DNA from: Streptacidiphilus melanogenes
GTDB taxonomy: Bacteria; Actinomycetota; Actinomycetes; Streptomycetales; Streptomycetaceae
Length of the DNA: 40,699 bases
Assembly (NCBI RefSeq): GCF_000787835.1
Contig: NZ_BBPP01000020.1
Location: 32,377-73,075 of the forward strand
Direction: 5' to 3'
Within the stretch, counting starts at the first letter, position 1. Each line of letters starts with the position of its first letter. Positions 11,566 to 31,643 of the stretch are shown here, piece by piece. Both the position numbers and the translations under genes were made by a program. The notes under the pieces were generated by a model, which was not told the origin of the DNA, did not search any database, and saw only the letters and a program-made list of their open reading frames with translations.

Positions 11566-11567
11566 AT

Positions 11568-11597
11568 TTGACTCGGATCTAATCCCTGTGGCATAGT
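11568..11597 (+). promoter_or_regulatory. Rightward promoter of the XRE regulator
   Basis: TTGACT (11568-11573) and CATAGT (11592-11597) with an 18-bp spacer. The palindrome CAAATTTG (11563-11570) covers the -35 edges of both divergent promoters, so a bound repressor, perhaps the XRE protein itself, could silence both. Confidence 0.5.
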
Positions 11598-11627
11598 CCG
11601 TAGGGTCGCGAGATGGGAGAGGTGGGA

Positions 11628-12122: not shown

Positions 12123-12169
12123 GCTCCGCCGCTGGTCGGGCTTCACCCAGCCCCACGGAAGGACTACCT

Positions 12170-14683: not shown

Positions 14684-14725
14684 CTCAGCAGCGTACCTGG
14701 CGACGTAGTACCTAAGTGAGAGAAC
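14684..14725. other. Attachment-site junction between element and nth
   Basis: The nth frame is normal up to AACGCCTTCGGT (minus strand) and then leaves the family sequence (Gly-Ser-Leu-Thr-stop). The integrase start lies 28 bp further. The crossover core must be within about 40 bp here; GTACCT occurs twice (14693-14698 and 14708-14713). The matching half-site and the nth C-terminal half should lie left of the window. The exact core cannot be defined without the other junction. Confidence 0.65.
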
Positions 14726-15200: not shown

Positions 15201-15314
15201 ACCCGCCAGACTACGACCCTGCAAGGACACGCAGGCCTCGAAAGGATCATCCGCCGCCCGGCGATGTCCGCAGCGCCGCGGCGGCGCACCCGGCCTCACC
15301 ACCCCACGGACGGG

Positions 15315-16313
15315 TCAGAGGTCGAGCTGCTCGCTGGTGGTGTCGAGGATGCCCTGGAGGGCGATGAGGTAGCCGAGCTGCGCGCGGCTGCTGCTGCCGC
15401 CCAGTTGCTGGGACAGCTGGCTGACGCGGGTGGCGACGGTCCGACGGCTGAGCCCCAGTCGGCGGGCGATGGCTTCGTCGGTGAAGCCGTGGACCAACAG
15501 GCGCGCGATGTTGAGTTGAACGTCCTCCACGACGGCCTCGGATCTCACCTGTCTGTCGATCGGGCCGAACGGGCGGGCCTCCTCCCACTGACGGTCGAAG
15601 TGACCCCGGAGAAAACGGATCAGTGCGGGCTGACGGATCTCCAACGCGGCGGCGGCGCGGTTGTCACTGGTGGGAATGAAGGCGACCGACTCGTCGCAGA
15701 TGATCAGCCGATCGTAGATCTCGGGCACCGTGCGGACCTCCGCGCCGGCCTCGGTGACCTTTTCGACGTAGGCGAGCGTGGGCGCGTGTGCACGCACGGA
15801 GTGCTGGTAGAGGGTCCGTTGGCGCACTCCCCGGCCCAGGATCACGAGGTCGCGTTCGATCGCGTCCTCCAGGTACTTCGTCGGTCTGCCGCCGCCCGGT
15901 TGCACGGTGAGCAGTTCGTCCGTGCAGGCGCCCACGGCGTGGCTGAGTGCCGCGCCGATCGCCGCGTCACCGGTCAGCAGGGTGAAGGGGATGTCCTCCT
16001 GGCTCCGGGCTCTGGAGTAGACGGATTCGTACAGCCCCATGGCGGTGCGGATACCGGCGATCTCGGCCTGCCGGTCGAGGACCGCCTGTTCGATCGCCTG
16101 GACGAGGGCCGCACCGGCCGCGTCCGGAGGGATGGGCACGAGGATGCCGGGGTCGCCCGGGAGCGGCTGGAGCATCTGGAGGCGCAGCAGGCAGTCCGGC
16201 GCCGCGGACACGGCAATCGATCCGGACTTAAGCGAGTATTCGTAACATCTTAGACCTTCAGGGCAAATTTCCTTTGGCACTACATATTCTGATTCTACGT
16301 CGAATGTGCACAT
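15315..16313 (-). CDS. LuxR-type helix-turn-helix regulator of the biosynthetic cluster
   Basis: A 332-residue protein. The C-terminal 65 residues form a LuxR-type helix-turn-helix (LLVHGFTDEAIARRLGLSRR, TVATRVSQLSQQLG). The middle resembles the TrmB/phospholipase-D-like sensor region of streptomycete orphan LuxR regulators (YQHSVRAHAPTLAYVEKVTE, then RLIICDESVAFIP). There is no PAS, receiver or ATP-binding domain. The first 30 codons are AT-rich and use codons rare in this window, so the 5' end may have a different history or carry regulatory signals; ATG at 16313 is nevertheless the best start. It is divergent from the operon and probably controls it. Its ligand is unknown; the neighbouring small secreted peptide is a candidate signal. 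Confidence 0.8.
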   Translation of the reverse strand: MCTFDVESEYVVPKEICPEGLRCYEYSLKSGSIAVSAAPDCLLRLQMLQPLPGDPGILVPIPPDAAGAALVQAIEQAVLDRQAEIAGIRTAMGLYESVYSRARSQEDIPFTLLTGDAAIGAALSHAVGACTDELLTVQPGGGRPTKYLEDAIERDLVILGRGVRQRTLYQHSVRAHAPTLAYVEKVTEAGAEVRTVPEIYDRLIICDESVAFIPTSDNRAAAALEIRQPALIRFLRGHFDRQWEEARPFGPIDRQVRSEAVVEDVQLNIARLLVHGFTDEAIARRLGLSRRTVATRVSQLSQQLGGSSSRAQLGYLIALQGILDTTSEQLDL

Positions 16314-16356
16314 GTGTTACCCCTGCATGATCGTGCCGTGCACATACATGATGCAG
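16304..16356. promoter_or_regulatory. Repeat-rich divergent control region
   Basis: The palindrome ATGTGCACAT (16304-16313) covers the regulator's start codon, and GTGCACAT recurs at 16338-16345. CTGCAT (16323-16328) and ATGCAG (16351-16356) form an outer inverted pair. The clustering between divergent genes suggests operator sites, but no consensus is known to me. Confidence 0.3.
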
Positions 16357-16435
16357 CACCGGCCGATCGTGGCGCCCAGCGGCTGGCATGATCGAGAACA
16401 CCGACAAGTGCGACATCGAACCAAAGGCTTCACCG

Positions 16436-16591
16436 GTGCGACTGAGATTCATTACCACCTGTTTCGCATTTCTTCTTTCCTGCGGCGGCGTGGCGACCCC
16501 AGCCCTGCTCTCCCTCTCCCCGACGTCGACCCAGACCGGTGTCGTGGCGGATTCCGCGTCCGCCCCCGCGGATTCGGGCTGGGGGCCGTGA
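16436..16591 (+). CDS. Small secreted peptide or lipopeptide precursor
   Basis: A 51-residue ORF from GTG at 16436, with AAAGG 8 nt upstream; an ATG at 16388 would add 16 polar residues with a poorer ribosome site. It begins VRLRFITTCFAFLLSCGGVA, a positively charged start and a hydrophobic core like a signal peptide. The Leu-Leu-Ser-Cys could be a lipobox or a normal cleavage region. A Ser/Thr/Ala-rich part follows and the chain ends ADSGWGP. It lies between the divergent LuxR regulator and the first biosynthetic gene. That position suggests a signal peptide for the regulator, which is a guess. I recognise no family with certainty. Confidence 0.5.
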   Translation: MRLRFITTCFAFLLSCGGVATPALLSLSPTSTQTGVVADSASAPADSGWGP

Positions 16592-16646
16592 CCCTCGTTC
16601 CCACGCACGAACCCACCGAAGGCCGGCAAGGAAAGGTTGACCTGAA

Positions 16647-18020
16647 GTGCTGCCACAGCTGAAGACCACTGTCCCCGGACCGGAGAGCCGCCGTCTCCTC
16701 GAGCGGCAGGCCGCCGTCGAGTCCAATGCGCGAAGCTACCCCCGCAATCTCCCCATAGCCGTGGCCAGCGCGTCCGGCTGCCTGGTGGAGGACGTCGACG
16801 GGAACACGTTCATCGACTTCCTCGCGGGTGCCGGCGTGCTCTCCCTCGGCCACAGCCACCCCGAACTCGTGGAGGTGGCGAAGCGCCAACTGGACACCTT
16901 CGTCCACGGGCTCGACTTCCCCACCCCGGCGAAGGAGGAGTTCGTCGAGGCGCAGCTGGGCATGCTGCCGGAATCCATGCGGGACCGCATGCGCATCCAG
17001 TTCTGCGGGCCGACCGGGGCGAACGCCGTCGACGCCGCGCTGAAGCTGTGCAAGACCGCGACGGGACGCGGGGACGTGATCGCCTTCTCCGGCGCGTTCC
17101 ACGGCAGCAGCACCGCGGCGCTCTCCATGACCGGCTGGGTCGGGCAGAAGGAGTCGATCGGCAACGTCATGCCGGGCGTTCACTTCTTCCCCTATTCCTA
17201 CTGCGCCCGGTGCCCGCTCAGCCTGACACCCGACTCCTGCGAGACGAACTGCGTCGCGCTGCTGGAGAGCATGCTCAGGGACACCCACGGCGGAATTCCT
17301 CGTCCGGCCGCCGTCGTGATGGAGCTGGTCCAGGGAGAGGGCGGCGTGATCCCCGCCCGCCGGGATTTCGTGGTCCGCGTGCGCGAACTCACCAGGGAAC
17401 TCGGAATTCCCCTCGTCGTGGACGAGGTGCAGACCGGCTGCGGACGCACCGGAACCTGGTTCGCGTTTGAGCAGTACGGAATCGAACCCGACGTCGTCGT
17501 GGCCTCGAAGGCGCTCAGCGGAATCGGTCTCCCGGCGGCCATCATTCTCTACGACGAGAAACTCGACGTGTGGAAGCCCGGAGCGCACTCGGGGACGTTC
17601 CGCGGAAACCAGATGGCATTCGCGACGGGTGTCGCCGCCATCGAGATCATTCGGCGCGACGAGATCCTGAAGAATGTGCTGGCGCGTGCCGACCAGCTCC
17701 AGGCCGCTCTCGGCGACCTGCAGAAGCGGCACCCCCAGGTGTACGAGGTGCGCGGCCTCGGGCTGATGTGGGGCATCGAACTGGTCGACCCCGCGACAGG
17801 CCGTCCGGCCGGCGAGCTGGCGCGCGCCGCCCAACGCCACTGCCTGGAGCACGGCCTGATCCTCGAGGTCGGCGGCCGCGCGGACGGCGTGCTGCGGCTG
17901 CTGCCGCCGCTGGTGGTGACCGAGGAGGTGGTCGCCGCGGCCGTGGACATCATCGACGGGGCGCTCACCGCCCTCTCTTCGACAGCGGACACGGAGCGTG
18001 GCGCCGATGTTCGCGCGTGA
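16647..18020 (+). CDS. Diaminobutyrate-2-oxoglutarate aminotransferase (class III)
   Basis: A 457-residue PLP enzyme that would make L-2,4-diaminobutyrate from aspartate semialdehyde and glutamate. Motifs: FCGPTGANAVDAALKL at 119-134, AFHGSSTAALSMTG at 150-163, VVDEVQTGCGRTG at 257-269 with the PLP aspartate D259, and VVASKALSG with the Schiff-base lysine K288. This is the EctB/Dat pattern, and the length is normal. No ectA or ectC is nearby, so the ectoine route is not meant; the diamine is probably a building block for the cluster product. The GTG start follows GGAAAGG. It overlaps the next gene by 14 bases. The substrate is inferred from family similarity; other omega-aminotransferases remain possible. 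Confidence 0.85.
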   Translation: MLPQLKTTVPGPESRRLLERQAAVESNARSYPRNLPIAVASASGCLVEDVDGNTFIDFLAGAGVLSLGHSHPELVEVAKRQLDTFVHGLDFPTPAKEEFVEAQLGMLPESMRDRMRIQFCGPTGANAVDAALKLCKTATGRGDVIAFSGAFHGSSTAALSMTGWVGQKESIGNVMPGVHFFPYSYCARCPLSLTPDSCETNCVALLESMLRDTHGGIPRPAAVVMELVQGEGGVIPARRDFVVRVRELTRELGIPLVVDEVQTGCGRTGTWFAFEQYGIEPDVVVASKALSGIGLPAAIILYDEKLDVWKPGAHSGTFRGNQMAFATGVAAIEIIRRDEILKNVLARADQLQAALGDLQKRHPQVYEVRGLGLMWGIELVDPATGRPAGELARAAQRHCLEHGLILEVGGRADGVLRLLPPLVVTEEVVAAAVDIIDGALTALSSTADTERGADVRA

Positions 18021-19338
18021 CTCCCGGGCCCTGGACCTGCTCGATGCCGCTCATCGGGAGCAGACGGAGCTGGACGACCACGGTTACGCCAAGGACGCGG
18101 TCGACCGGCAGCAGCAGTTGAAGCTGGACGCCCTGTGGGACCGGGCCGTGCAGGTGCCCTACTACCGCGAGCTGCCCGCCGTCGCCGCCCGCAGCCTGGA
18201 GCGCCTGCCGGTCACCCCCAAGTCGGCGCTCAAGGCGGACCCCTGGGCGTTCGTGCGGAGTGACGCCGAGGTGGCGTCCTTCCACAAGTACTACGAGTCC
18301 TCGGGCTCGACGGGATCGCCGACGCCGACCCCGAGGCTCGTCGAGGACGCGGTGTGGAACACCGCCTCGGTGGCCTCGCTCTGGCGCCGCACGCTGCGTC
18401 CCGGCGACCGGGTGGCGTCGCTGCTCCCGTCCGACGTCGCCCCGGTGGGCGACCTGGTCGCGTCGGTGGCCGAGTACCTGGACTGCACGCTGCTGCGCAG
18501 CTATCCGTTCAGCCAGGGGATGTGCGACTGGGACCGGCTGGAGGAGCTCTTCACCCGCTACCGCCCGCAGCATGTCTTCGCTGCTCCCGGGGTGATCATC
18601 CAGTGGACGCGGATCCTCAAGCAGCGCCGTCGGCTGGAGGCCGTCCGTGAGAGCGTCGAGTCCCTGATGCTGCTGGGCGAGGTCAGCACGCCGGCCCTGC
18701 GCTCCCGGCTCGCCCTCGAGTGGGACGCCCGGGCACTGGACGCGTCCTACGGCAGCACCGAGACCGGAACCATCGCGGCCAGCTGCGAACACGACCGGCT
18801 GCACGTCCTGCTGCCCGGCCAGTTCGTCGAGCTGTGGGACGGCGAGCGCGCGACGCCGCTCGAGCCGGGCCGCAGCGGCGAGCTGGTCACCACGACCCTG
18901 AACAACTTCGCCCGACCGCTGCTCCGTTACGGGACCGGGGACCTGGTGACGGCCGACGTCGGCACCGACTGCCGGTGCGGCGTCGCCCTCCCCACGCTGA
19001 CCGTCCACGGGCGCGAGAGCGACGGCATCAGCGTGCACGGAGTGCCGGTCTCGGTGGCCGAGGTCGAGTCCGTGGTCTACCAGGAGCCGGGCGTGACCGG
19101 CTACCTCATCCAGCTGGTGCGGCCGGAGGGACACCGGGCCCGCCTGGTCCTGGAGCGGGACGTGGACTTCGACGGCGACGAGCAGGCCCTCTGCGACGAC
19201 GTGCGGGAACGTTTCGCCGGGCACGGCCTCCTCTGGGACCAGGTGGTGCTCGTCGGCCAGCTGCCGACCCTGACCAAGGCCGGTGGCAGCCAGAAGAACT
19301 GGAAGCGGACCAACGTGCAGTGGGTGGAGCCGTCATGA
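18007..19338 (+). CDS. PaaK-like adenylate-forming ligase 1
   Basis: A 443-residue member of the phenylacetate-CoA ligase branch of the ANL superfamily, which activates a carboxylic acid as acyl-AMP and passes it to CoA or a carrier protein. Visible motifs are the phosphate loop ESSGSTGSPTPTP, ASYGSTETG, the hinge LLRYGTGDLV followed by a C-x-C pair (DCRCG), and a C-terminal lysine region KAGGSQKNWKR. It starts at ATG 18007 (GTG at 17998 is possible), inside the end of the aminotransferase gene, and overlaps the next start by ATGA. A second PaaK-like enzyme and a shorter ANL ligase lie downstream, so three acids may be activated or one route may use several steps. Substrate unknown. Confidence 0.8.
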   Translation: MFARDSRALDLLDAAHREQTELDDHGYAKDAVDRQQQLKLDALWDRAVQVPYYRELPAVAARSLERLPVTPKSALKADPWAFVRSDAEVASFHKYYESSGSTGSPTPTPRLVEDAVWNTASVASLWRRTLRPGDRVASLLPSDVAPVGDLVASVAEYLDCTLLRSYPFSQGMCDWDRLEELFTRYRPQHVFAAPGVIIQWTRILKQRRRLEAVRESVESLMLLGEVSTPALRSRLALEWDARALDASYGSTETGTIAASCEHDRLHVLLPGQFVELWDGERATPLEPGRSGELVTTTLNNFARPLLRYGTGDLVTADVGTDCRCGVALPTLTVHGRESDGISVHGVPVSVAEVESVVYQEPGVTGYLIQLVRPEGHRARLVLERDVDFDGDEQALCDDVRERFAGHGLLWDQVVLVGQLPTLTKAGGSQKNWKRTNVQWVEPS

Positions 19339-21095
19339 CCGCCACGACCCCGATCGACGCGCCGGGCGAGCGCTTGCTGACATCGGACGGCGGAGCCAGG
19401 CAGGGCGGCGCCGACCTCTGGTGCACCTACGCGGCCATCCGCACGCTGACCTGGCTCGACGCCGAGCCTCTCGACCGTGCCGCGGCCGTCGCACAGCTGA
19501 CGGGCTGCCAGAACAGCGACGGTGGCTTCGCCTGGCAGAAGGGCCTTCCCTCGGATGTCTGGGCGACCTACTACTGCACGCAGGCCATGCGGGACCTCGG
19601 CGTCGCACCGGACCGCCTCGACGAGCTGACCCGATGGCTGACCGGCCTGCAGCACGCGGACGGCGGCTTCGCGATGACTCCCGGCCAGGCCCCGGACGTC
19701 TGGGCGACCTACTACGCCACGCGGACGTTCAGCGAGGTCCTGGCCCTGCCCGTACCGCGGGTCGGCGACGTGCACCGCTGGCTGTCCCGGCTGCAGCGCG
19801 CCGACGGCGGCCTCGGCTGGTACCCCGGGGCGCGCGCGTCCGACACCAGGGCGTGCTACTACGGCGCGATGGCCTGGCGTGCCTCGCTCACCGACCCGGA
19901 CGAACCCGCCCCGTGGCGCGTCGCGGAGCTGGAGAGCTGGCTGCTCGGCCGCCGGCAGTCCGACGCCGGCTTCGTGTTCGACGACAGCGCGGACCGCTCC
20001 TGCCTGTGGGCGACCTTCCGGGCCGTGCGCGCGCTCGACGCCCTGGCGATCCCGCAACCGCGGGCCGAGGAGTGCCTCGCCTGGATCACCGGACGTCTCC
20101 TGCCCGGGACCGGTTTCGCCCGGTGGAACGACTACGAGGTGGCCGACGTCTGGGCCTGCTTCAGCGCCGTGGGCGCGCTGCAGACCCTGGGCGGTGACCT
20201 GTCCCCGAAGGACCGGGCCCAGGTGGTGGACTTCCTCCACGGGTGCGAGCTCCCCGACGGCGGCTTCACCTACCGTCGGGTCGACCACGCCGGCGACAGC
20301 CTGGCGACCTCGGCCGCGCTGATCACCGAGTCCCTGGCCGGACGCGGCGACGAAGGTCGGGCCGGCGAACTGGCCGACTGGCTGCACCGGGCGCACATGC
20401 CCTATGAGGGCGGCGTGATGTACATGCCCGGACGCGGTGCCGAGGTCCGGTGCACGCTGTGGGCCACGTCGGCGACGAGCGCCGCGGGCGCCCGTCCCCT
20501 CGACCGTGACCGGCTGGCCGACTGGCTGGGGCGGCTGCAGAACCCCGACGGCGGGCACGGCTACTGGCACGGCCGCGCCTCCGACATGGTGGCGACGGTC
20601 TCCGCCCTGGAGACGCTGCACCAGCTCGGCCACTCCCTGGACGAGGTGCTCGACACCACCGCCACCGAACTCTTCCTCACGTCCTGCGCCGACGGCGCCG
20701 ACTACCGCTACACGCCCAGTGGACAGGTGACGGCGGGTTCCACGGCGCAGGCGGCCCGCGCGCTGTGGCTGCTCGGTCGGCGGGAGGAGGCCAACAAGAC
20801 GGCGGCACGGCTGGTGGCCTTCTCCAGCCGCATCGGGGGCAGTTCCGCCCAGACCCGCGGCCTGCCGGACCTGGCGACCACGTACCAGGTGGTGCTCACC
20901 CGCCAGACCCTGGGCGTTGCGCAAGACCCGGAGGACACCGCCCGGTTCCTGGGCCGGGTACGTCTCGCGGGCGGCTACGCGTGGAGCCCGCTGGGACAGC
21001 GGTCCGGTGGTCCGCTCGCCGACTGCCTCGGCTTCGTGCTCGACCGGTACGCCGCCTCCGGCGGCCGGATCCGGCTGCCGTCCCTGAACCTGTAG
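19335..21095 (+). CDS. Alpha/alpha-toroid protein of prenyltransferase/squalene-oxidase repeats
   Basis: A 586-residue protein made almost wholly of about eleven repeats of 45-55 residues. Each has a Q-x-x-D-G-G-F turn followed by D-x-W-A-T-Y-like helices, for example QNSDGGFAWQ with SDVWATYYCTQAMRDLG, QHADGGFAM with PDVWATYYATRTF, QRADGGLGW and QNPDGGHGY. This is the repeat of protein-prenyltransferase beta subunits and triterpene or class II terpene cyclases. I find no DxDD (class II cyclase) motif, no signal peptide and no membrane segment, so ordinary terpene cyclisation is doubtful. It lies inside the ligase operon, coupled to the preceding ligase by ATGA. It could be a novel cyclase, a condensing or lyase-type enzyme, or a scaffold. 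Function unknown. Confidence 0.8.
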   Translation: MTATTPIDAPGERLLTSDGGARQGGADLWCTYAAIRTLTWLDAEPLDRAAAVAQLTGCQNSDGGFAWQKGLPSDVWATYYCTQAMRDLGVAPDRLDELTRWLTGLQHADGGFAMTPGQAPDVWATYYATRTFSEVLALPVPRVGDVHRWLSRLQRADGGLGWYPGARASDTRACYYGAMAWRASLTDPDEPAPWRVAELESWLLGRRQSDAGFVFDDSADRSCLWATFRAVRALDALAIPQPRAEECLAWITGRLLPGTGFARWNDYEVADVWACFSAVGALQTLGGDLSPKDRAQVVDFLHGCELPDGGFTYRRVDHAGDSLATSAALITESLAGRGDEGRAGELADWLHRAHMPYEGGVMYMPGRGAEVRCTLWATSATSAAGARPLDRDRLADWLGRLQNPDGGHGYWHGRASDMVATVSALETLHQLGHSLDEVLDTTATELFLTSCADGADYRYTPSGQVTAGSTAQAARALWLLGRREEANKTAARLVAFSSRIGGSSAQTRGLPDLATTYQVVLTRQTLGVAQDPEDTARFLGRVRLAGGYAWSPLGQRSGGPLADCLGFVLDRYAASGGRIRLPSLNL

Positions 21096-21112
21096 AGGAG
21101 GGGTCGCCCGCG

Positions 21113-21541
21113 ATGCCGACCATCACCGTCGAAACCAATCTCGAGGACCCACTGCTGCCGCGCCGCGCCGCCAAGGCGTGGAGCCTGTGGATGCGGCGCA
21201 ACGGCGTCGACATCAACCACGTGATCACCAAGTTCCTGCCGCTGCCCGACGACCGGGTCTTCAGCGGCCCGTTCCCGCTCGGGGCGACCCCGTCGGGACC
21301 GCCGCAGCCGTTCGCGTTCGTCCAGTGCTCCATCAGCGAGACCCGGAGCCCCGGCTTCCGCGCGGAGCTCGCGGAACAGATCGTCCGGGCCCTCGGCCCG
21401 GACGTCCCGGACGAGCGCATCTTCATCCGGTTCGACCTGGTCGATCCCGCCCTGCACGTGACCGGCGCCGCCGCCGTGCGACCCGCCGAGGGCCCTGGCC
21501 CGTCGGCCCCGACAGACTTCGCTGAGAGGAACCCACGATGA
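21113..21541 (+). CDS. MIF/4-oxalocrotonate tautomerase superfamily protein
   Basis: A 142-residue protein that starts M-P-T-I-T-V-E-T-N, so that removal of Met leaves the N-terminal proline that serves as catalytic base in this superfamily. Two beta-alpha-beta halves are suggested (AFVQCSISETRSPG in the middle, then RIFIRFDLVDPALH), as in the MIF/MSAD group. The C-terminal 20 residues are disordered. It may tautomerise an enol or keto intermediate, or add water to or remove it from an unsaturated acid. The ATG at 21113 follows GAGGAGGGG. It overlaps the carrier-protein start by ATGA, so the two are probably made in equal amounts. Confidence 0.7.
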   Translation: MPTITVETNLEDPLLPRRAAKAWSLWMRRNGVDINHVITKFLPLPDDRVFSGPFPLGATPSGPPQPFAFVQCSISETRSPGFRAELAEQIVRALGPDVPDERIFIRFDLVDPALHVTGAAAVRPAEGPGPSAPTDFAERNPR

Positions 21542-21825
21542 CGACCCAGCACACGGACGTGGCCGCGGCCATCCGGGACGCGTTGGGAGAGGTGCTGGGC
21601 ACGACCCTGCGCCCGGAGGACGACGACCTCGCGCTGAACGAGCGTTACGAGCGCTACGACAGCCTCGCGGTGATCGACGCCGTCGGCGCGGTCGAGCAGG
21701 CACTCGGGGTCTCCATCGACCTGGTCGACGACGACCTGCGCTCCAGCTTCGCCAGCGTGGCGTCGATCGAACGCCTGGTGGCCCGCAAGAAGGCGGACCT
21801 GTCCGTCCTCGACAGCGCGTTCTGA
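21538..21825 (+). CDS. Acyl carrier protein
   Basis: A 95-residue stand-alone carrier protein. The phosphopantetheine serine is Ser42 in YDSLAVID, on a helix that begins after an acidic first helix-loop (RPEDDDLALNERYERYDS); the second half (GVSIDLVDDDLRSSFASV) is the usual helix II-IV region. It would carry an acyl or aminoacyl thioester made by one of the ANL ligases. There is no ketosynthase or condensation domain in the cluster, so downstream steps must act on a tethered unit in another way. It is coupled to both neighbours by overlaps (ATGA, TGATG). Confidence 0.88.
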   Translation: MTTQHTDVAAAIRDALGEVLGTTLRPEDDDLALNERYERYDSLAVIDAVGAVEQALGVSIDLVDDDLRSSFASVASIERLVARKKADLSVLDSAF

Positions 21826-22928
21826 TGCCCGTCCAGAAGCTGCGGCCGCCCGGCCGCGTGCCGCCTGCCGAGCATCTGGCCCGTGCGGTCCAGCAGCTCG
21901 TGGATCCCGGGTCGGGCTCGCCCGACGAGCGGGTGCTCGTGGAGTGGCCCCGCGGCGGGGCCTCCGGCGTCGCACTGCTCGAACTGCTGCCGGCGGAGCT
22001 CCCGTTCGACACGTCCGGAACCACCGGTCCGCCCACCACCTGGTGGCGCGCCGGCCTGCAACTCGTCTCCGAGGGCCAGCTGCTCGTCGAGACGTTGGGG
22101 CTCTCGCAGGTCGACGCGGTCGTCACCTACGCGCCCACCCGCCACCTGTACGGCTTCCTGTTCGGTTGCGTGGTGCCGGCCCTGCTCGGGGTCCCCGTGT
22201 ACCACGTCGACCTCGGCTCCCCGCTGCCGTTCGTCGAAGGCCGCCGCCCCCTGGTCGCGACCCTGCCCGCCGCCTGGTGGCATCTGAAGCGCTCGGGTCT
22301 CGCGCTGGACCGCTTCGACGCGCTCACCCTCGTCCACAGCAGCGCCCATCTGCCGCCCACGGCGGACGAGGTCTGCGCGGGCCTGGGGCGGCGGGCCCGC
22401 CTGTACGAGCTCCACGGCTCCACCGAGACGGGCCTCGTGGCCACACGGGTCCACGGCGAGGGCGACGTCTGGCATCTGGCCGAGGACGTCCGCCTCGCCC
22501 ACACGCTGCCCCCGGACTGCGAGTACCGGCTCGAGGTCCGCAGCCCCCGGCTGGCCCGGAGGACCGGCGAGCCCCGGCCGTCCCGGCTGCTCATGGACGA
22601 CCTCGTGCTGACCGGGCGACAGCCGCGCACCTTCCGGCTGCTGGGCCGGCACAGCCGTCTGGTCAAGGTGAACGGCAGGCGGGTCGACCTCGGCCAGGTC
22701 GAGGCGCTCCTCCTCGACGCCGTACCCGACGCCGTGCTCAGTTGCGAAGCCGTCCGTGACCCGCTGCGCGGCGAGTGGCACGAGGTGCTGGTGGCCGGCG
22801 GGTCGGCAGAGCTGGATGCCGTGGCCGAAGCCTGCCGACGTGTCCTGCTGCCCTGGCAGGCGCCGCGCGGCATCCGCCAGGTGCAGCACACCCACCGCAC
22901 TCCCAAGGAAAGGACCCTGCTGCGATGA
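21825..22928 (+). CDS. Compact ANL-superfamily acyl-ACP/CoA ligase
   Basis: A 367-residue adenylate-forming enzyme, much shorter than the usual 500 residues because the N-terminal subdomain is reduced. It keeps the P-loop DTSGTTGPPTTWW near 60-70, ELHGSTETGLVA, and a C-terminal NGRRVDLGQVE hinge region with a final TPKERTLLR carrying the likely catalytic lysine. It resembles the small AMP-ligases of aryl-polyene pathways, which load aromatic acids made by tyrosine/phenylalanine ammonia-lyases onto ACPs. The ACP gene immediately before it (TGATG) and the ammonia-lyase downstream fit that role: p-coumarate onto the ACP (inference). Confidence 0.75.
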   Translation: MPVQKLRPPGRVPPAEHLARAVQQLVDPGSGSPDERVLVEWPRGGASGVALLELLPAELPFDTSGTTGPPTTWWRAGLQLVSEGQLLVETLGLSQVDAVVTYAPTRHLYGFLFGCVVPALLGVPVYHVDLGSPLPFVEGRRPLVATLPAAWWHLKRSGLALDRFDALTLVHSSAHLPPTADEVCAGLGRRARLYELHGSTETGLVATRVHGEGDVWHLAEDVRLAHTLPPDCEYRLEVRSPRLARRTGEPRPSRLLMDDLVLTGRQPRTFRLLGRHSRLVKVNGRRVDLGQVEALLLDAVPDAVLSCEAVRDPLRGEWHEVLVAGGSAELDAVAEACRRVLLPWQAPRGIRQVQHTHRTPKERTLLR

Positions 22929-24172: not shown

Positions 24173-25455
24173 CCCAGGCCGTCCTCGATCCGCCCGCCGC
24201 TCTCACCCTGCCGCTGCGCCGCCGGGACGAGCTGCTGCGCCGGGGTGAACTCGATCCCGGGAGCTGGCGGGCGCTGCTGCTGCGGCACATCCGCTCGACC
24301 GACCCGGAGATCCGCGCGCTGGCCGACTTCCGTCCCGACGACGTGGCCGACCCGGGCATCCCGACGCGTCCGACGGTCGTCTACAAGGACACGATCGACG
24401 TGCGCGGGCGGGCGACCAGGCTCGGCATCACCTCCGGGTACCGGTGCTACCCGGAGCGTTCGGCCCGGGTCGTCGACCGCCTCGCGGAGGCCGGCTACCG
24501 GACCGTCGGCAAGGCCGCGACGACCGAGGTCAGCATCGGAGCCGTCATCCCCAGCCGCAACCCCCGCTACCGCGACGTGAGCGCGGGAGGATCGAGCAGC
24601 GGGTCGGGTGCGGCGGTGGCGGCCGCATTCGCGGACCTGTCGGTGTGCACCGACTCGGGCGGATCGGCCCGTTGGCCCGCCGTCTACTGCGGCGCGGTCG
24701 GGTTGCGGCTCGGCTGGGATCCGGCGCAGCTGGACGGCGTGACGGCCCTGTCACCGCGGATGGAGAGCCTCGCGGTGATCACCAGGACCGCGGACGACCT
24801 GGCGTGGCTGTGGCAGGAGCGAGGACTGCGCGAGGCGCTGCTTCCGGAGCCGCCCGGCCGGTCCGCGCCCGGCCGACCGCGCTTCGCCCTGGTGGCGGAC
24901 TGCTTCGACGAACCGCTCGACCCCCAGGTCGCCGCGGCTGTCAGAGGCCTGGCCGAGCGGCTCGCGAAGGCGGGCCACACCGTCTCCGAGGTGCGGGCCC
25001 CCTGGTGGGACGAGCGGGAATCCGCCTGGCAGCTGCTGCTGCGCGAGGCCTGGGACGCCCACGCCGCGCGCGGGACCGAGACGTACCAGCCGTCGACCCG
25101 TGCCGCGCTGGAACGCGGCAGCCGGATCACCGACGCCCGGCTCCGCCGACTGCTCGACCGGCAGCGCCGGGCCCGCGCCGCAGCCGACGAGCAGTTCGCC
25201 CACGGCCCCGACGTCCTGCTGCTGCCGCTCGATCCGCATCTGGCGGACCGGGTGCAGCCCGACGACCGCCCGTCGACGGTTCCCGTCGGCAGCCCGGGAT
25301 TCACCATCGGGATCAGCTTTGCCGGACTCCCCGCGCTGGCGCTGCCCGTGGCGCACGCATCCGACGGTTCCCCTCTCGGCGTTCAACTCGTCGCCCGGGG
25401 CGGAGCCGAGGACGTCCTCGTGTCGGCCGGTCGGCTGATCGAACAACTCATCTGA
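24169..25455 (+). CDS. Amidase-signature family amidohydrolase
   Basis: A 428-residue enzyme of the GatA/AtzF amidase family. The Ser-cisSer-Lys triad is present: Lys73 in VVYKDTID, the cis-serine in SAGGSSSGSGAAV (142-144) and the nucleophile Ser166 in CTDSGGSARWP. It hydrolyses an amide, or transfers the acyl group to another amine. In the cluster it may remove a protecting or carrier amide or trim a product of the ATP-grasp ligases. It is not a GatA, as no gatB/C is nearby. The start is GTG at 24169, overlapping the previous stop. Confidence 0.88.
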   Translation: MTQAVLDPPAALTLPLRRRDELLRRGELDPGSWRALLLRHIRSTDPEIRALADFRPDDVADPGIPTRPTVVYKDTIDVRGRATRLGITSGYRCYPERSARVVDRLAEAGYRTVGKAATTEVSIGAVIPSRNPRYRDVSAGGSSSGSGAAVAAAFADLSVCTDSGGSARWPAVYCGAVGLRLGWDPAQLDGVTALSPRMESLAVITRTADDLAWLWQERGLREALLPEPPGRSAPGRPRFALVADCFDEPLDPQVAAAVRGLAERLAKAGHTVSEVRAPWWDERESAWQLLLREAWDAHAARGTETYQPSTRAALERGSRITDARLRRLLDRQRRARAAADEQFAHGPDVLLLPLDPHLADRVQPDDRPSTVPVGSPGFTIGISFAGLPALALPVAHASDGSPLGVQLVARGGAEDVLVSAGRLIEQLI

Positions 25456-25467
25456 GGGGGTGACGAC

Positions 25468-27033
25468 ATGACAGCACGCCAGAGCGGGCTCACCGCCCTG
25501 CTCACCAACGCCTTCCACGGCGATCCGCTGCGCCTGACCAGCGGTGACCGCAACCGCATGGTCGCCAGCCGCCAGGCCCTCGACGGACGGCTGGCGACCG
25601 GCGGCGAGGTGTACGGGATCTCGCGCGGCTTCGGCCCGCTGGTCGCCTACGGCACCGACGGCGACGCCGAAGCCCAGGGGATCCGCCTGATCCACCACCT
25701 CTGCGTCGGCCAGGGCGCCCCGCTGGGGGCGTCCGAGACCCGCCTCATGTACTGGCTCCGGCTCGTCGGGATGCGACAGGGGCACTCGGCCGTCCCCGTC
25801 GCCGACTGGACGCGGCTCGCCGAGCTGTACGACAGCGGCTTCGTCCCGCTCGTGCCCAGCGAGGGAAGCCTCAGCGCCAGCGGCGACCTGGTCCCGCTCG
25901 CCCACGCGGCGCTCGCCCTGGCCGGTGACGGCGAGGCCTGGGCGCCCGACGGCACCGTCCGCCCGGCAGCCGAGGCACTGCGGTCGGCGGGATCCGCACC
26001 GGTCCGCTGGACCGCACGCACCGCACTCGCCTTCGTCAACGGCAGCAGCGCCTCGCTGGCCGTCGCCATCCTCAACCACCAGCGGCTGGGCGCGGTCGCC
26101 CGCTCCCTGGCCGCCGTCACCGGCAGGGTCGCCGCACTGCTCGGCTGCAACCCCGAGGCCTACGACGACGCCCTGCAACTGGTCCGCAACCAGAAGGGCC
26201 AGTGGCAGGCCGCGGAGTGGATCAGGGACGAGCTCCCCGCGGCGCAGCACCCGGCCGACGGCCGACCGCTGCAGGAGCCGTACTCGCTGCGATGCGCCCC
26301 TCAGGTGATCGGCGCCGTGCTCGACCAACTCGACCTGCAGGAACAGGTGCTGACCGCCGAGGCCGCCGGGGTCACCGACAACCCGGTGACCGTCGGCCAA
26401 CGCGTGCTGCACGGCGGCAACTTCCACGCCATGCCGGTCTCCTTCGCCAGCGACATGCTCGCGCTCTGCGCCCAGCAACTCGCCTTCCTGGCCGAGCGGC
26501 AGCTGGCGCTGCTCGTCGATCCCCGGCACAACGGCGGCCTGACGCCGATGCTCACCTGGACGCCCGGACCCCACAGCGGTCTGGCGGGGGTGCAGATCGC
26601 CGCCTCGTCCATGGTGGCGAAGGCGCGCCAGCTCGCCTACCCGTCCGGGCTGACGGCCCTTCCGACCAACATGGGCAACCAGGACCACGTGCCGATGGCC
26701 CTGAACGGCGCCGTGGTGGGCACCGAGGTGATCCGGTACGCCCAGCTGGCGACCGCCTCGTTGGCCCTGGCGGCCACCCAGCTCGGACACCACCTCGCCG
26801 CGTCACCCGCCGAGGGCACCGTCTGGGCCAGACTGCACGACATCAGCCCTCCGCTGCTGGTCGACCGACCGCTGGCGGCGGAGGTGCGGCGCACGGCGGC
26901 CACGCTGGCGGCGGCCTACAACCCCGATCCCCGGCTCGTGGACGTCCTGTCGCCGGCCGGGGGCGACAACCGCTCGTGGGGCCGGCGCGCCGAGCCCACG
27001 CAGGACGAGGACGAAGGAGCACATCATGGTTGA
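25468..27033 (+). CDS. Aromatic amino acid ammonia-lyase, tyrosine type (MIO enzyme)
   Basis: A 521-residue HAL/PAL-family enzyme that forms its own MIO cofactor from Ala137-Ser138-Gly139 (SLSASGDLVPLAH). The catalytic tyrosine is Tyr49 in YGISRGFG. The selectivity pair after LIH is His77-Leu78, which by spacing matches His89-Leu90 of Rhodobacter TAL, so the substrate is probably tyrosine and the product p-coumarate. Other family blocks are FVNGSSASLA, QEPYSLRCAPQVIGA and TDNP. A tyrosine 2,3-aminomutase giving beta-tyrosine is the main alternative. A TGAGGGGGTGA ribosome site precedes the ATG, and the gene overlaps the SDR by 8 bases. Confidence 0.88.
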   Translation: MTARQSGLTALLTNAFHGDPLRLTSGDRNRMVASRQALDGRLATGGEVYGISRGFGPLVAYGTDGDAEAQGIRLIHHLCVGQGAPLGASETRLMYWLRLVGMRQGHSAVPVADWTRLAELYDSGFVPLVPSEGSLSASGDLVPLAHAALALAGDGEAWAPDGTVRPAAEALRSAGSAPVRWTARTALAFVNGSSASLAVAILNHQRLGAVARSLAAVTGRVAALLGCNPEAYDDALQLVRNQKGQWQAAEWIRDELPAAQHPADGRPLQEPYSLRCAPQVIGAVLDQLDLQEQVLTAEAAGVTDNPVTVGQRVLHGGNFHAMPVSFASDMLALCAQQLAFLAERQLALLVDPRHNGGLTPMLTWTPGPHSGLAGVQIAASSMVAKARQLAYPSGLTALPTNMGNQDHVPMALNGAVVGTEVIRYAQLATASLALAATQLGHHLAASPAEGTVWARLHDISPPLLVDRPLAAEVRRTAATLAAAYNPDPRLVDVLSPAGGDNRSWGRRAEPTQDEDEGAHHG

Positions 27034-27778
27034 GCAGGCACAGGACCGTCAGGTCGTGGTCGTCACCGGCGGAACCAGCGGCATCGGACGATCCGTCGCC
27101 GCCGACTTCGCCCGGACCGCCACCGTGGTCGTCGTGGGACGCGACCCCGAGCGGGTGGCGGCCATGAGCGCGGAGACCGGCGTCGCGGGCGTGACCGCCG
27201 ACGTCGGCGTGCGGGCCGATGTGGAGCGTCTGGCCGACCACCTCCGCGAGCAGCACGGGCGGGTCGACGTGCTGGTCAACTGCGCGGGCTTCCTCAAGGC
27301 GGTCTCGCCGACGACGCCCCTGCCGCAGGCGGAGGAGGCGTGGGACGCCGTCGTCGACGCCAATCTGAAGGGCGCGTTCCTGGTCAGCCAGGCGTTGATG
27401 CCGATGCTGGCGAGCCCCGGCGGCCGGATCGTCAACATCAGCTCCATCGCCGCGGTCACCGGCGGGAGCGGCAGCGCCGCCCTCGCCTACGCCGCCGCCA
27501 AGGCGGGACTGATCGGGCTGACCTACTCCCAGGCCCGCGGACTCGGGCCGTCCGGGATCACCGCCAACGCGATCGCCCCCGGCTTCGTCGCGGACACCGG
27601 CTTCACCGGTGACTGGCCCGAGGAGCGGATCCGGTCGATCGTCGCGCAGACCCCCGTCGGCCGCGCCGGCCACACCGACGACGTCGTCGCCGCCACCCGC
27701 TATCTCGCCTCCGCCGAGGCCTCGTTCGTCACCGGCCAGGTGTTGCACGTGAACGGCGGCTGGGCGTTCGGACGCTGA
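27026..27778 (+). CDS. SDR-family oxidoreductase
   Basis: A 250-residue classical short-chain dehydrogenase/reductase. The cofactor motif TGGTSGIG is at 14-21, NCAG at 85-88, the serine region NISSIAAV near 137-144, and Tyr155-x3-Lys159 in YAAAK. The arginine after the second strand (GRDPERV) favours NADP(H). There are two extra residues between the serine and the tyrosine compared with FabG. It may reduce a keto or oxidise a hydroxy intermediate, possibly carrier-bound. It overlaps the lyase stop. Confidence 0.88.
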   Translation: MVEQAQDRQVVVVTGGTSGIGRSVAADFARTATVVVVGRDPERVAAMSAETGVAGVTADVGVRADVERLADHLREQHGRVDVLVNCAGFLKAVSPTTPLPQAEEAWDAVVDANLKGAFLVSQALMPMLASPGGRIVNISSIAAVTGGSGSAALAYAAAKAGLIGLTYSQARGLGPSGITANAIAPGFVADTGFTGDWPEERIRSIVAQTPVGRAGHTDDVVAATRYLASAEASFVTGQVLHVNGGWAFGR

Positions 27779-27795
27779 GAGGACAGGACCACCAC

Positions 27796-29106
27796 ATGAG
27801 CGACGCCGTCATCTTCTGCGGTGCAGCGGCCCTGAGCTGGAACCCCGACTTCCTGCACGCCGCACGCGCTCGCGGCCTGCGCGTTCTGGCCGTGGAGACG
27901 CCGGCTGCGCGCTATGCCGACTCCGCACTGCTCACCGGCGACTCCGGGCCGGACGCGCTGGCGTGGGTCGACGCCGGGGAGACCTCCGCGCTGCTGGCCG
28001 TCGTCCGGGACTGGGCCCGCGCGTACGAAGTCGTCGGGATCTGCGCGCTGCGCGAGGACTGGGTCGAGCCGGTGGGCCTCGCCGCCGACCTCCTCGAGAC
28101 GCCCGGCATCGGCCTGCGCGCGAGTCGGGCCTGCCGCGACAAGTCCCTGCAGCGCGGCTACCTGGCCGCCTGGAGCCCGCGCCACACGGTCCTCCCTCCG
28201 GGGGACCGCGGTGCGGCGAGCCACTGGGACGGTTTCCCGGCGGTGCTCAAGCCCACGGGCCGGTCCGCCAGTTCGGGCGTTGTCGCGCTCGCCGACCGGG
28301 ACGGACTGCGCCAAGCCCTCACCGCCTACCCGGACGACGAGCCGCTCCTGCTGGAGGAGCGCGTGTACGGCCCCGAGTTCTCGGTCGAGTCCCTCGTGCG
28401 CGGCGGCGACGTGGTCTTCTCCGGGATCACCGGGAAGCGGACCACCGAGGAGACGGACGGCGGCTTCGTCGAAGTCGCCCACACGGTGCCCGCGGACGTC
28501 TCCGCGCCGCTCGGTGACGCGCTGCTGGAGGCCAACCGTCAGGTGCTGCGCCGACTCGACGTGCGTGACGGGATCATCCACGCCGAGTACCGGGTGACCG
28601 ACACCGGGAGGGTCGTCCTCACCGAGGTCAACGGACGCTGCCCGGGAGGGAGCATCCCGGCGCTGTACCGCCTGGCGACCGGCGCTTCGCTGGAGGACGC
28701 CGTCGTCGCGCTGGCCGTCGGACAGCCGGTGACCATGCCTGCGCCACGACGTTGGGCGCGGCAGGTGTACGTGCGCCACCGGCCGGGTGTGCTCGAAGGC
28801 CTCGACGTCGCGGAGGGCGCACCGACCCCGGTCTGGCTCGCCGAGGAGGGTGTGCGCCGGATACCGGGGCCGGCCGACCGGTCGGAGCCGGGGACACTGC
28901 GGGCGATCACCGTGATCAAGCCGCGCGGCGCTCTGCTCGGCCGGCTGACCAGCAATCAGGACCGCGCCGTCACCTACATCGTCGACGCGCCGGACATCGG
29001 AGCGCTCGACGCCCAGGAGAGGTCGGCCGAGGCGGCCCTGCACCTGCGCGTGGGCGCCGTCGAAGAGGCCCCGGCGGCCGTCCAGGCACCGGGGGCGACC
29101 CGATGA
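27796..29106 (+). CDS. ATP-grasp ligase 1 (amino-acid ligase type)
   Basis: A 436-residue ATP-grasp enzyme that joins a carboxylate to an amine through an acyl-phosphate. Lys152 in AVLKPTGRSASSG and the LLLEERVYGPEFSVES block (184-199) bind ATP. The Mg-binding TEVNGRCPGG (276-285) includes E277 and N279. The order and length match L-amino acid ligases such as BacD/DdaF and the carbamoyl-phosphate-synthase-like group. Together with the second ATP-grasp enzyme and the amidase it points to amide-bond assembly without an NRPS. The ATG follows GAGAGGAC, and the end overlaps the exporter by ATGA. Confidence 0.85.
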   Translation: MSDAVIFCGAAALSWNPDFLHAARARGLRVLAVETPAARYADSALLTGDSGPDALAWVDAGETSALLAVVRDWARAYEVVGICALREDWVEPVGLAADLLETPGIGLRASRACRDKSLQRGYLAAWSPRHTVLPPGDRGAASHWDGFPAVLKPTGRSASSGVVALADRDGLRQALTAYPDDEPLLLEERVYGPEFSVESLVRGGDVVFSGITGKRTTEETDGGFVEVAHTVPADVSAPLGDALLEANRQVLRRLDVRDGIIHAEYRVTDTGRVVLTEVNGRCPGGSIPALYRLATGASLEDAVVALAVGQPVTMPAPRRWARQVYVRHRPGVLEGLDVAEGAPTPVWLAEEGVRRIPGPADRSEPGTLRAITVIKPRGALLGRLTSNQDRAVTYIVDAPDIGALDAQERSAEAALHLRVGAVEEAPAAVQAPGATR

Positions 29107-30383
29107 CGGCACCGACGGGCGTCACGGATCCGGCTCCGGACGTGGCGGCGACCTCGCTGCTGGGCCGGCTGCTGCCGTCCGATCGCTCGGCGCGCGTGCT
29201 CGCCGCGGCGACCTTGGTCAACATGGTGGGGAACGGCTTCTACCTGGCCAGCAGCATGCTCTTCTTCACACGGGTCGTGCAGCTGTCCACGACCGAGGTG
29301 GGCGAGGGGCTCGCCGTGTGCGCCGTCGTCGGCGTCTTCGCGGGCGTGCCGCTGGGCCATCTGGCGGACCGCCTGGGGGCGCGTGAGGTCTTCATCGCAC
29401 TGCAGTTGGTCCAGGCCGCCGCGATGATGCTCTTCCCCCTGGTGCACGGGTTCCCGGCCTTCCTGGCGGTGGTCGTCGTCGCCGCGGTCGGACAGCGCGG
29501 CGGCACGGCCGTGGGCGGGGCGCTGATCGCCTACATCGCCACGCCCGCACGACGCACCAGCACCCGGGCCTACCTCCGCTCGGTGATCAACGCCGGCACG
29601 GCCGTCGGGGTCGCGGCCGCGGGGTTCGCCCTGCAGGCGAACTCCCGGCACGACTACGTCCTGCTGGTCCTGGGCAACGGCCTCACCTTCCTGCTCGCCG
29701 CGGTCATCCTGCTCTGGTTGCCGCGGGTGCCTCCGCGTCAGGCGCCGCCGCAGGCGAGCCGGGCCGAAGCCCTGCGGGACCGGCCGTACCTGGCCGTCGC
29801 CGCCCTCAGCGGCGTTCTGGCCTTCCAGTACGACGTCATGTCCGTCGCCCTGCCGCTGTGGGTGGTGCAGGAGACCGGCGCCCCGCGCTGGTCGCTGTCC
29901 CTGCTGCTGGTGGGGAACACGGCCGTGATCGTGCTCTTCCAGGTCCGGGCGGCGCGCGGCGTCGTCGACGTGACCAGCGCGGGCCGCGTGACGCGACGCT
30001 CGGCCGTGGTCTTCCTGGTCAGCTGCACCGCCATCGCGCTCGCCGCCGGGACGCCCGCAGCGGTTGCCCTGCCGTTGCTCGCCGGGGGCGTGCTGGTGCA
30101 CTCCGTCGGTGAACTCTGGTTCGCCGCAGGCACCTTCGAGCTCGGCTACGGCCTGGCCCGGGACCACGCCCAGGGGCAGTACCAAGGCGTGTTCAACCTT
30201 GCGGCCGGCCTGGCCCGTTCGGCCTCGCCACTGGTGCTGACCACGCTCTGTCTGGAGTGGGGCCGGCCCGGATGGATCGTTCTCGGGATCGGGCTGGCCG
30301 TCACCGGCCTGGCCGTCCCTCCCGTGGCCGCCTGGGCCGCCCGCTCGCGGCTGCCGGAACCGCCGCTCACCAGCAACTCCTGA
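29103..30383 (+). CDS. MFS transporter, probable product exporter
   Basis: A 426-residue protein with about 12 hydrophobic segments. The loop 2-3 motif GHLADRLGAREVF is the A-motif of the major facilitator superfamily. The middle of the chain has a polar loop (LPRVPPRQAPPQASRAEALR) that separates the two six-helix halves. Its place between the two ATP-grasp genes, in the same overlapping operon, suggests export and self-protection. No substrate can be told from the sequence. Confidence 0.88.
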   Translation: MTAPTGVTDPAPDVAATSLLGRLLPSDRSARVLAAATLVNMVGNGFYLASSMLFFTRVVQLSTTEVGEGLAVCAVVGVFAGVPLGHLADRLGAREVFIALQLVQAAAMMLFPLVHGFPAFLAVVVVAAVGQRGGTAVGGALIAYIATPARRTSTRAYLRSVINAGTAVGVAAAGFALQANSRHDYVLLVLGNGLTFLLAAVILLWLPRVPPRQAPPQASRAEALRDRPYLAVAALSGVLAFQYDVMSVALPLWVVQETGAPRWSLSLLLVGNTAVIVLFQVRAARGVVDVTSAGRVTRRSAVVFLVSCTAIALAAGTPAAVALPLLAGGVLVHSVGELWFAAGTFELGYGLARDHAQGQYQGVFNLAAGLARSASPLVLTTLCLEWGRPGWIVLGIGLAVTGLAVPPVAAWAARSRLPEPPLTSNS

Positions 30384-30401
30384 TCCAGTGAGGTGATCAC
30401 C

Positions 30402-31643
30402 ATGACGAGCATCCTGGTACTGAACCGCCCCCCGTTGATCCACATGCCCTACGGGGAGTGGCTCGGCCCTGACATCGACATCCGGATGATCACCGGCCCG
30501 GGCGCCCTCGGGGGGCGGCCGGCGCCCGAGGGGGTGGTCGTGATCGAGGACTACGACTCCTCCGGTCTGGTGGAACAGGCCGCCGTCGAGATGTACCGGG
30601 AGCGCCCCTACGACCTGATCATCGCCCTTTCCGAGTACGACCTGATGCGCGCGGGACGCCTGCGCGAGGTGCTCGGGCTCCCCGGACAGGACTATGCCGG
30701 GGCCCTGGCCTTCCGCGACAAGGTCGTGATGAAGGACCACTGGCGGGACGCGGGCGTTCCGGCGACCGCCTACGCGCCGCTGCGCACCGCGGCCGACCTC
30801 GCGGGCTTCGTCGGCGAGCACGGCTTCCCGGTCGTGGTGAAGCCCCGTCTGGGCACGGGATCCCGCGCGGTCGCCGTCCTGAGGGACGAGGACGACGTCC
30901 ACCGGTGGCTCACCGAGTGCTGGTCACTGCCGCTCTCCGACATCTCGACCTGGATGGTGGAGTCCTTCGTCGAGGGCGAGATGCTGCACGTCGACGGCCT
31001 CTACAACGCGGGGGAGATGGAGATCGCCTGGCCGTCGACCATCACCTCGCTGCTGGGCTTCCACGAGCGCCGCCCCACCTTCAGCGCGATGCTCGACCCG
31101 GACGACCCGGCCGTCGCGGACTGCCGGGACCTGGTCAGGCGCAGCCTGGAGGGCCTGCCCTCCACCGAACTCGCGATCTTCCACGCCGAGCTGTGGCGGA
31201 CGCCGGACGGCACGCTGCTGATGAACGAGATCGCCGCCCGCCAGGGGGGCGGCAAGATCGGCCCGGCGGTCCGCGCGGCCTTCGACGTCCATCTGATGCG
31301 CCGGTACGTCCGGCTGGCCGTCCTCGGGCAGGAGGAGCCCACCCCTCCTGCCCGACCGCGGCAGTGCGCCGGATGGGCCCTGATACCGCCGCACACGGGA
31401 ACCGTTCTCGCAGCCTCGCAACCGGACGGCCACTTCGACCAGGGGTGGATGGTGGAGGCATCGGTCTCGGTCCGTGCCAGGGACCGCCTGTACGGCGCCG
31501 GGTCCAGCATCGACGCCGTCGCGAGCTGTCTGGTCACCGGGGACACCCGGGCCGAGGTGCTCGACCGCCTGGAGCAGTTCGCCGACTGGGCCGGGAACGC
31601 GGTCCGCTACGAAACCTCGGAGGCCGTCGCCGGGACGAAGTGA
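30402..31643 (+). CDS. ATP-grasp ligase 2
   Basis: A 413-residue ATP-grasp enzyme, clearly different from ligase 1. Blocks are FRDKVVMKDHWRDAGVP at 104-120, VVVKPRLGTGSRAVAVL with Lys147, MVESFVEGEMLHVDGL, and LLMNEIAARQGGGK for Mg. This resembles biotin-carboxylase-like ATP-grasp proteins of secondary metabolism. It begins at ATG 30402 with GAGGTGAT just upstream. It is the last gene of the cluster and is followed by a hairpin and a tandem repeat. Two ATP-grasp enzymes suggest two successive amide bonds, or one ligation and one carboxylate activation. Confidence 0.83.
   Translation: MTSILVLNRPPLIHMPYGEWLGPDIDIRMITGPGALGGRPAPEGVVVIEDYDSSGLVEQAAVEMYRERPYDLIIALSEYDLMRAGRLREVLGLPGQDYAGALAFRDKVVMKDHWRDAGVPATAYAPLRTAADLAGFVGEHGFPVVVKPRLGTGSRAVAVLRDEDDVHRWLTECWSLPLSDISTWMVESFVEGEMLHVDGLYNAGEMEIAWPSTITSLLGFHERRPTFSAMLDPDDPAVADCRDLVRRSLEGLPSTELAIFHAELWRTPDGTLLMNEIAARQGGGKIGPAVRAAFDVHLMRRYVRLAVLGQEEPTPPARPRQCAGWALIPPHTGTVLAASQPDGHFDQGWMVEASVSVRARDRLYGAGSSIDAVASCLVTGDTRAEVLDRLEQFADWAGNAVRYETSEAVAGTK

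Follow-up and report, generated by a model that had tools for sequence, protein, structure and literature searches.

A 40,699-nucleotide stretch of the Streptacidiphilus melanogenes genome (contig NZ_BBPP01000020.1, positions 32,377 to 73,075 of the forward strand; hereafter, the window) raises the question of what is made by an operon that combines a free acyl carrier protein (ACP) with adenylating ligases, ATP-grasp ligases, and an aromatic ammonia-lyase. None of its 13 genes was assigned to a nonribosomal peptide synthetase (NRPS) or polyketide synthase (PKS) family (condensation, ketosynthase, or multidomain module). An earlier note on this DNA had proposed an amide-forming pathway free of NRPS and PKS, a description borne out by these family assignments and by a gene set that should form amides. 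Here, we find that the locus is a real, discrete, and conserved biosynthetic cluster within the carrier-protein and NRPS-independent pathways, and that its core may be a class of its own. In our best reading, which we hold with slightly less than even confidence, the operon makes a small tyrosine-derived amide on one free ACP, via a p-coumaroyl-ACP that is remodelled by a tautomerase-superfamily protein and a toroid protein.

The five-gene core and its relatives

Five adjacent forward-strand genes form the part of the operon that recurs most completely: a PaaK-like adenylating ligase (AMP1, 18007..19338; PF00501 38.2 bits, over cut-off), a double alpha/alpha-toroid protein (TOR, 19335..21095; PF00432 130.1 bits), a tautomerase-superfamily protein (TAUT, 21113..21541; recognized by its conserved Pro, His, and Arg and by relatives that match Tautomerase_3), a free ACP (21538..21825; PF00550 21.5 bits, barely over the cut-off of 20.8), and a short adenylating ligase that is a proposed p-coumarate:ACP ligase (AMP2, 21825..22928; predicted fold and a weak TIGR02372 match). 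A scan of genome contigs with a profile of the TOR alignment yielded 46 loci. Twelve of these (L056-L067; E-values of 1e-5 to 8e-4), with short toroid matches and mostly from Bacteroidales, were dropped before counting, and 34 (L022-L055) were kept. Three contigs carry two locus labels each (L055/L014, L039/L021, and L045/L019), and all counts of 34 use the L022-L055 set only. The gene content of the 34 loci was evaluated by tblastn, in stretches reaching up to 10 kb on each side.

AMP1-TOR-TAUT-ACP-AMP2 was complete, in this order and on one strand, in 28 of the 34 loci, and wherever both were found, AMP2 came after the ACP gene. The six incomplete loci comprised two short contigs (L046 and L047), three loci where all but one or two small genes were detected (L028, L035, and L040), and one with only AMP1 and TOR in place (L054). 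By label, 33 of the 34 loci are actinobacterial, spread over at least a dozen genera that include Streptomyces viridochromogenes DSM 40736 and S. galbus DSM 40089; the remaining one, L047, is a 3-kb contig labelled Melainabacteria. AMP1 and TOR of that contig are at ~47% identity, and it is perhaps a misbinned actinobacterial contig. The nearest relatives of the window's type are from Kitasatospora indigofera (TOR 57% identical), Kitasatospora sp. MBT63 (51%), and Winogradskya consettensis (49%).

Genes around the core are less constant. A 3-deoxy-D-arabino-heptulosonate 7-phosphate (DAHP) synthase lies near 27 of the 34 cores, an ammonia-lyase of the 4-methylideneimidazole-5-one (MIO) type near 21 (more than 50% identical to the window's lyase in eight, and a fragment in two), and an amidase near 18. 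Four further types of surroundings were distinguished. Subtype A carries an asparagine-synthase-like amidotransferase, an aldo-keto reductase, and a class II DAHP synthase. Subtype B (L015 at 5715-17372, L017, L026, L027, L030, L031, L033, L036, L040, and L043) carries a class I DAHP synthase, an aldehyde-dehydrogenase-like protein, another short ligase, and an allene-oxide-cyclase-like barrel, with an L015-type MIO lyase in eight of its ten members, and could represent a bacterial coumaryl-aldehyde route. Subtype C features a RimK-like ATP-grasp, and subtype D a divergent third adenylating enzyme (AMP3) and divergent ATP-grasps; in the subtype D cluster L016, a DDAH/amidinohydrolase-like gene at 14437-15336 adjoins the divergent AMP3. 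The conserved heart is thus AMP1-TOR-TAUT-ACP-AMP2, often with an MIO lyase and a DAHP synthase, whereas the aminotransferase, AMP3, amidase, and ATP-grasps belong to a periphery that varies. The earlier note had suggested looking for the same gene set in other actinobacteria; the five-gene core does recur, in mostly actinobacterial loci, but with accessory genes that vary.

AMP2 was detected in two of 396 genomes of the phylum (the window's own and G648), TAUT in one of 396 (the window's own), and TOR in nine of 391 genomes of the order, its own included. A scan of genome contigs with AMP2 alone found no relative, and surveys of the core genes in other settings revealed no link to a characterised pathway.

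The position of the cluster was compared using stretches from five of the 13 other genomes in the host's genus. The distance from nth to the znu operon is ~0.74 and 0.89 kb in two of the five (G007 and G006) versus 16.6 kb in the window, while in G002 a gap of 7.8 kb is filled by other genes and nth was not found in the G008 and G004 stretches around znu. The znu permease is present in 14 of 14 genomes of the genus and AMP2 in only one, the window's own. Because nth and znu sit 0.7-0.9 kb apart in two of the five related genomes, the cluster is most simply a discrete insertion, at a location that accepts other genes as well. Given the conserved core order in 28 of 34 loci and the absence of the cluster between nth and znu in two of five genomes, we take the arrangement to be more than chance. 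The cassette makes up a coherent and conserved unit of biosynthesis, with a periphery of at least four types, and no product for it came to light in the open-access literature searched; elucidation of a single member would go far to explain the others.

Two further observations concern this neighbourhood. Beside znu in G008 (L085, G008:C263:9000-28900) are a protein of 1405 residues, next to which a 90-residue protein looks MbtH-like by eye, and two ATP-grasp genes that share 30-33% identity with those of the window, as though biosynthetic genes gathered here at a hotspot. To the left of the cluster, at 11927-15302 of the window, a Gp3-like directionality factor (11927-13156) and a serine integrase (12887-14683) abut an nth-like fragment (14712-15302), and a longer nth-NUDIX match is at C88:176-1892; an element of ~45 kb seems to have inserted into nth immediately left of the cluster.

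The acyl unit and its carrier

We infer each reaction, and the order of the steps, from gene content, order, and conservation together with the selectivity residues of the lyase, the carrier serine, and predicted folds. The lyase would convert L-tyrosine to p-coumarate, which AMP2 would adenylate and load onto Ser42 of the ACP. TAUT (Pro1/His/Arg) and TOR, in what are the least certain steps, might then target the conjugated double bond of coumaroyl-S-ACP, whether by isomerisation, by an addition, or by cyclisation inside the toroid chamber. AMP1, a distant relative of the bagremycin synthetase, would join this unit to a partner. Because lyases and DAHP synthases surround one cassette, we take tyrosine to be the probable feedstock and p-coumarate the probable acid, and the DAHP synthase near most cores was counted toward a tyrosine-derived product, as in the bagremycin cluster.

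AMP2 is the candidate ACP loader because its best NCBIfam model is the 4-coumarate-CoA ligase TIGR02372 (76.8 bits), its predicted fold is that of an adenylating ligase, and its gene overlaps the ACP gene by one base. In Foldseek, ligases of the malonyl, chlorobenzoyl, and coumaroyl type match its predicted structure (mean predicted local distance difference test score, pLDDT, 84.9) at TM-scores of ~0.5. The serine that would be loaded, Ser42 of a DSL motif, is invariant in 21 of 21 ACP sequences (alignment A5, with 20 of 34 relatives). Alternatively, p-coumarate might not be on the ACP at all: AMP1 or AMP3 would load an amino or other acid on the ACP, and any coumarate formed would go straight to a PaaK-like ligase for joining, in the manner proposed for bagremycin. 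AMP1 does resemble BagE/FevW (98.6 bits, below the cut-off of 800), which the portion of the bagremycin report available to us proposes to condense an acid and an alcohol directly via adenylation (PMC6692506), and a lyase is near only 21 of 34 cores. However, AMP2 follows the ACP gene wherever both were found and its best model is a coumarate ligase, and we regard direct joining as doubtful.

That an already published pathway explains the family appears unlikely. The literature covered was open access only, and the family is widespread, with members in the two named Streptomyces strains; yet none of the five core proteins in the window exceeds the cut-off of an NCBIfam model, and none of the open-access matches listed reports this gene set in its title or abstract. 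The earlier remark that no described pathway has this set therefore holds among those matches.

Returning to p-coumaroyl-ACP, the acyl unit depends on the MIO aromatic ammonia-lyase at 25468..27033 (forward strand; PF00221 371.7 bits), which has the MIO Ala-Ser-Gly motif (SASGDL) and a tyrosine-type selectivity pair. Its best match in the PDB is a Rhodobacter enzyme (2o6y, E 7.4e-58) labelled a putative histidine ammonia-lyase in the file, which we take to be the Rhodobacter tyrosine ammonia-lyase (TAL). His77-Leu78 of the lyase align with His89-Leu90 of 2o6y, and the pair is present in four of four close lyases aligned from relatives (alignment A2, row L002 excluded), whereas another lyase of the host genome (L001) has Ser-His at this place; we presume that such pairs (His-Leu, Ser-His) reflect the substrate. 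The earlier assignment as a tyrosine-type ammonia-lyase agrees with these residues. Because the His-Leu pair is as in Rhodobacter TAL and the aminomutase model Tyr_2_3_mutase scores far under its cut-off (210 versus 501 bits), p-coumarate is the likelier predicted product of the lyase than beta-tyrosine, and of the two units offered by the earlier note, coumaroyl is favoured and beta-tyrosyl disfavoured. A tyrosine 2,3-aminomutase, with AMP2 loading beta-tyrosine on the ACP and the ligases making beta-tyrosyl amides, is quite improbable: in enediyne pathways a carrier protein does receive beta-tyrosine, and the tyrosine aminomutase structure 2qve is among the solved relatives of the lyase (E 3.8e-46), but the closest solved relative is 2o6y, the aminomutase model falls short, and L015, a locus from a different subtype, encodes a lyase resembling BagA (it reaches 658 bits with the BagA/FevV tyrosine-lyase model, short of the cut-off of 1000, and is the one subtype B lyase scored).

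The tautomerase superfamily includes enzymes that react at a conjugated double bond, such as cis-CaaD, which hydrates an acrylate. The window's TAUT has no Pfam or NCBIfam match on its own, but of the 23 sequences aligned (A4, with 22 of 35 relatives), 16 match Tautomerase_3 (best E 6.7e-6). Pro2, which becomes Pro1 after loss of Met, and His36 are present in 23 of 23 sequences and Arg78 in 22 of 23. The cis-CaaD subgroup is defined by Pro1, His28, Arg70, Arg73, Tyr103, and Glu114, according to the part of the source available (PMC5818174). In a weak match to cis-CaaD, compared at Pro1, His28, Arg70, and Arg73, the equivalents of Pro1 and His28 are kept in 23 of 23 TAUT sequences and that of Arg73 in 22 of 23.

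Several results weigh against a p-coumaroyl-ACP route. The best NCBIfam model of the lyase is histidine ammonia-lyase (328.7 bits versus a cut-off of 524), its scores with the tyrosine ammonia-lyase models of flexirubin (FlxA, 226 versus 700 bits) and BagA (162.5 versus 1000 bits) are low, and no NCBIfam lyase model exceeds its cut-off. The other lyase type of the family (L015 and L017) has Tyr-His in place of His-Leu, and the His-Leu pair cannot separate an aminomutase from a lyase. The lyase matches in L049 and L050 are fragments only, and no lyase was found within the searched stretch at 13 of 34 loci, eight of which had 10 kb on both sides. No DAHP synthase is among the 13 operon genes, and the host genome's one copy of the class II enzyme, the class searched for, is on another contig. 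AMP2 is under the PF00501 cut-off (26.7 versus 29.9 bits), its TIGR02372 score is weak against a cut-off of 334.7, and lysine at what we take to be the usual P-loop position is absent in 14 of 14 AMP2 sequences (alignment A6, with 13 of 34 relatives). Finally, the profile search brought up cis-CaaD only at E 0.06, and the place of its Arg70 is variable in TAUT.

Accessory genes and operon layout

The remaining genes would supply and attach the amine. On the forward strand (16647-31643), the gene order is AT, AMP1, TOR, TAUT, ACP, AMP2, AMP3, AMID, MIO lyase, SDR, ATPG1, MFS, and ATPG2, as called from open reading frames, codon-position GC content, and start sites; the genes are co-directional as first described, but number 13 rather than twelve. 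AT (16647..18020) is a class III aminotransferase of the diaminobutyrate-2-oxoglutarate family (TIGR00709, 464.1 bits versus a cut-off of 401.6), is 76% identical to the copy in L037, and could make 2,4-diaminobutyrate or a relative. The family label given earlier therefore stands, while diaminobutyrate as the core of the family was rejected, AT being near only three of 34 cores; joining of the acyl unit to 2,4-diaminobutyrate is a guess.

AMP3 (22925..24172; PF00501 49.6 bits, over cut-off), a second PaaK-like adenylating enzyme, is 23% identical to AMP1, which is itself conserved across alignment A7 (18 of 37 AMP1 relatives plus the window's AMP3). Together with two ATP-grasp ligases, ATPG1 (27796..29106; PF13535 65.1 bits, with weak PDB matches to amino-acid and D-Ala ligases) and ATPG2 (30402..31643; PF13535 28.4 bits versus a cut-off of 27, LAL_C2 24 versus 29.4), AMP3 might form further amide bonds. 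The amidase-signature enzyme AMID (24169..25455; PF01425 159.9 bits), related to GatA and malonamidase, may trim or transfer, the short-chain dehydrogenase/reductase SDR (27026..27778; PF13561 177.2 bits) may reduce, and the predicted major facilitator superfamily exporter MFS (29103..30383; PF07690 91.5 bits) may export the product. These assignments agree with the gene content listed by the earlier note. A divergent helix-turn-helix (HTH) regulator is encoded on the reverse strand (15315..16313); its earlier label as a LuxR regulator is retained only as a weak likeness, with GerE at 22.2 bits versus 23.5 and HTH_23 at 24.4 versus 24.6. Proteins 26-27% identical to it adjoin the cores of L033 and L036.

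Genes overlap by 1-14 bases at eight of 12 junctions, in keeping with the earlier observation that most do: AT/AMP1 (14 bases with the AMP1 start at ATG 18007, or 23 with GTG 17998), AMP1/TOR (4), TAUT/ACP (4), ACP/AMP2 (1), AMP2/AMP3 (4), AMP3/AMID (4), lyase/SDR (8), and ATPG1/MFS (4). The other four junctions are gaps of 12-18 bases: TOR-TAUT (17), AMID-lyase (12), SDR-ATPG1 (17), and MFS-ATPG2 (18 from ATG 30402, or 9 if ATPG2 starts at GTG 30393).

Comparison with known systems

A bolder proposal, which we consider possible but put forward tentatively, is that the cassette represents a new class of carrier-protein pathway that has neither condensation domains nor ketosynthases. Here, p-coumaroyl-S-ACP would be rearranged or cyclised by a Pro1 tautomerase and a cyclase-fold toroid that lacks the terpene-cyclase acid motif, and dozens of actinobacteria would decorate this common phenylpropanoid scaffold with differing modules of amide, aldehyde, or amino acid type.

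Among described systems, the bagremycin and ferroverdin clusters (bag and fev) share with the window a lyase and a PaaK-like ligase, and the subtype B relatives carry a BagA-like lyase and a DAHP synthase; the available part of the source assigns to the bagremycin cluster of Streptomyces a tyrosine ammonia-lyase, together with a PaaK-like synthetase and a phospho-2-dehydro-3-deoxyheptonate aldolase (PMC6692506). In contrast, AMP1 and the window's lyase fall far below the BagE/FevW and BagA cut-offs, and no 3,4-AHBA (3-amino-4-hydroxybenzoic acid) synthase or DhnA-type aldolase family was assigned among the 13 operon genes. The bagremycin gene table includes 3,4-AHBA enzymes and UbiX/UbiD-type decarboxylases and, in the part of the table covered, no ACP, toroid, or tautomerase (PMC6692506).

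Flexirubin biosynthesis, as far as the available part of its description goes, likewise starts an ACP-using pathway with a tyrosine ammonia-lyase (FlxA) and a coumarate ligase (FlxY), but FlxY was shown to make the coenzyme A (CoA) thioester (PMC3992019), and ketosynthases follow, of which there are none among the operon's 13 genes. ATP-grasp pathways to NRPS-independent peptides (bacilysin BacD and BL00235) resemble the present operon in combining amino-acid ligases with an MFS exporter. To our knowledge, pathways of the BacD/BL00235 type have no ACP or toroid core.

TOR has a predicted structure (pLDDT 91.9) that resembles squalene cyclases and prenyltransferases. We take DxDD to be the general-acid motif of class II terpene cyclases and Asp, Cys, and His to be the zinc site of protein prenyltransferase beta subunits. 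DxDD is absent in 28 of 28 TOR sequences (alignment A3, with 27 relatives of 36 usable frames), and TOR as a canonical class II terpene cyclase was rejected on this basis. No histidine is fully invariant in the 28; the one retained most often, in 26 sequences, belongs to the second toroid, where the window has Phe496 instead and L023 also lacks it. In the first toroid, no histidine is kept in more than 19 of 28 sequences, as counted in the alignment, which may set TOR apart from the prenyltransferase beta subunits. If the proposed route is true, a squalene-cyclase-fold toroid that works on a tyrosine-derived thioester would broaden the known roles of this fold.

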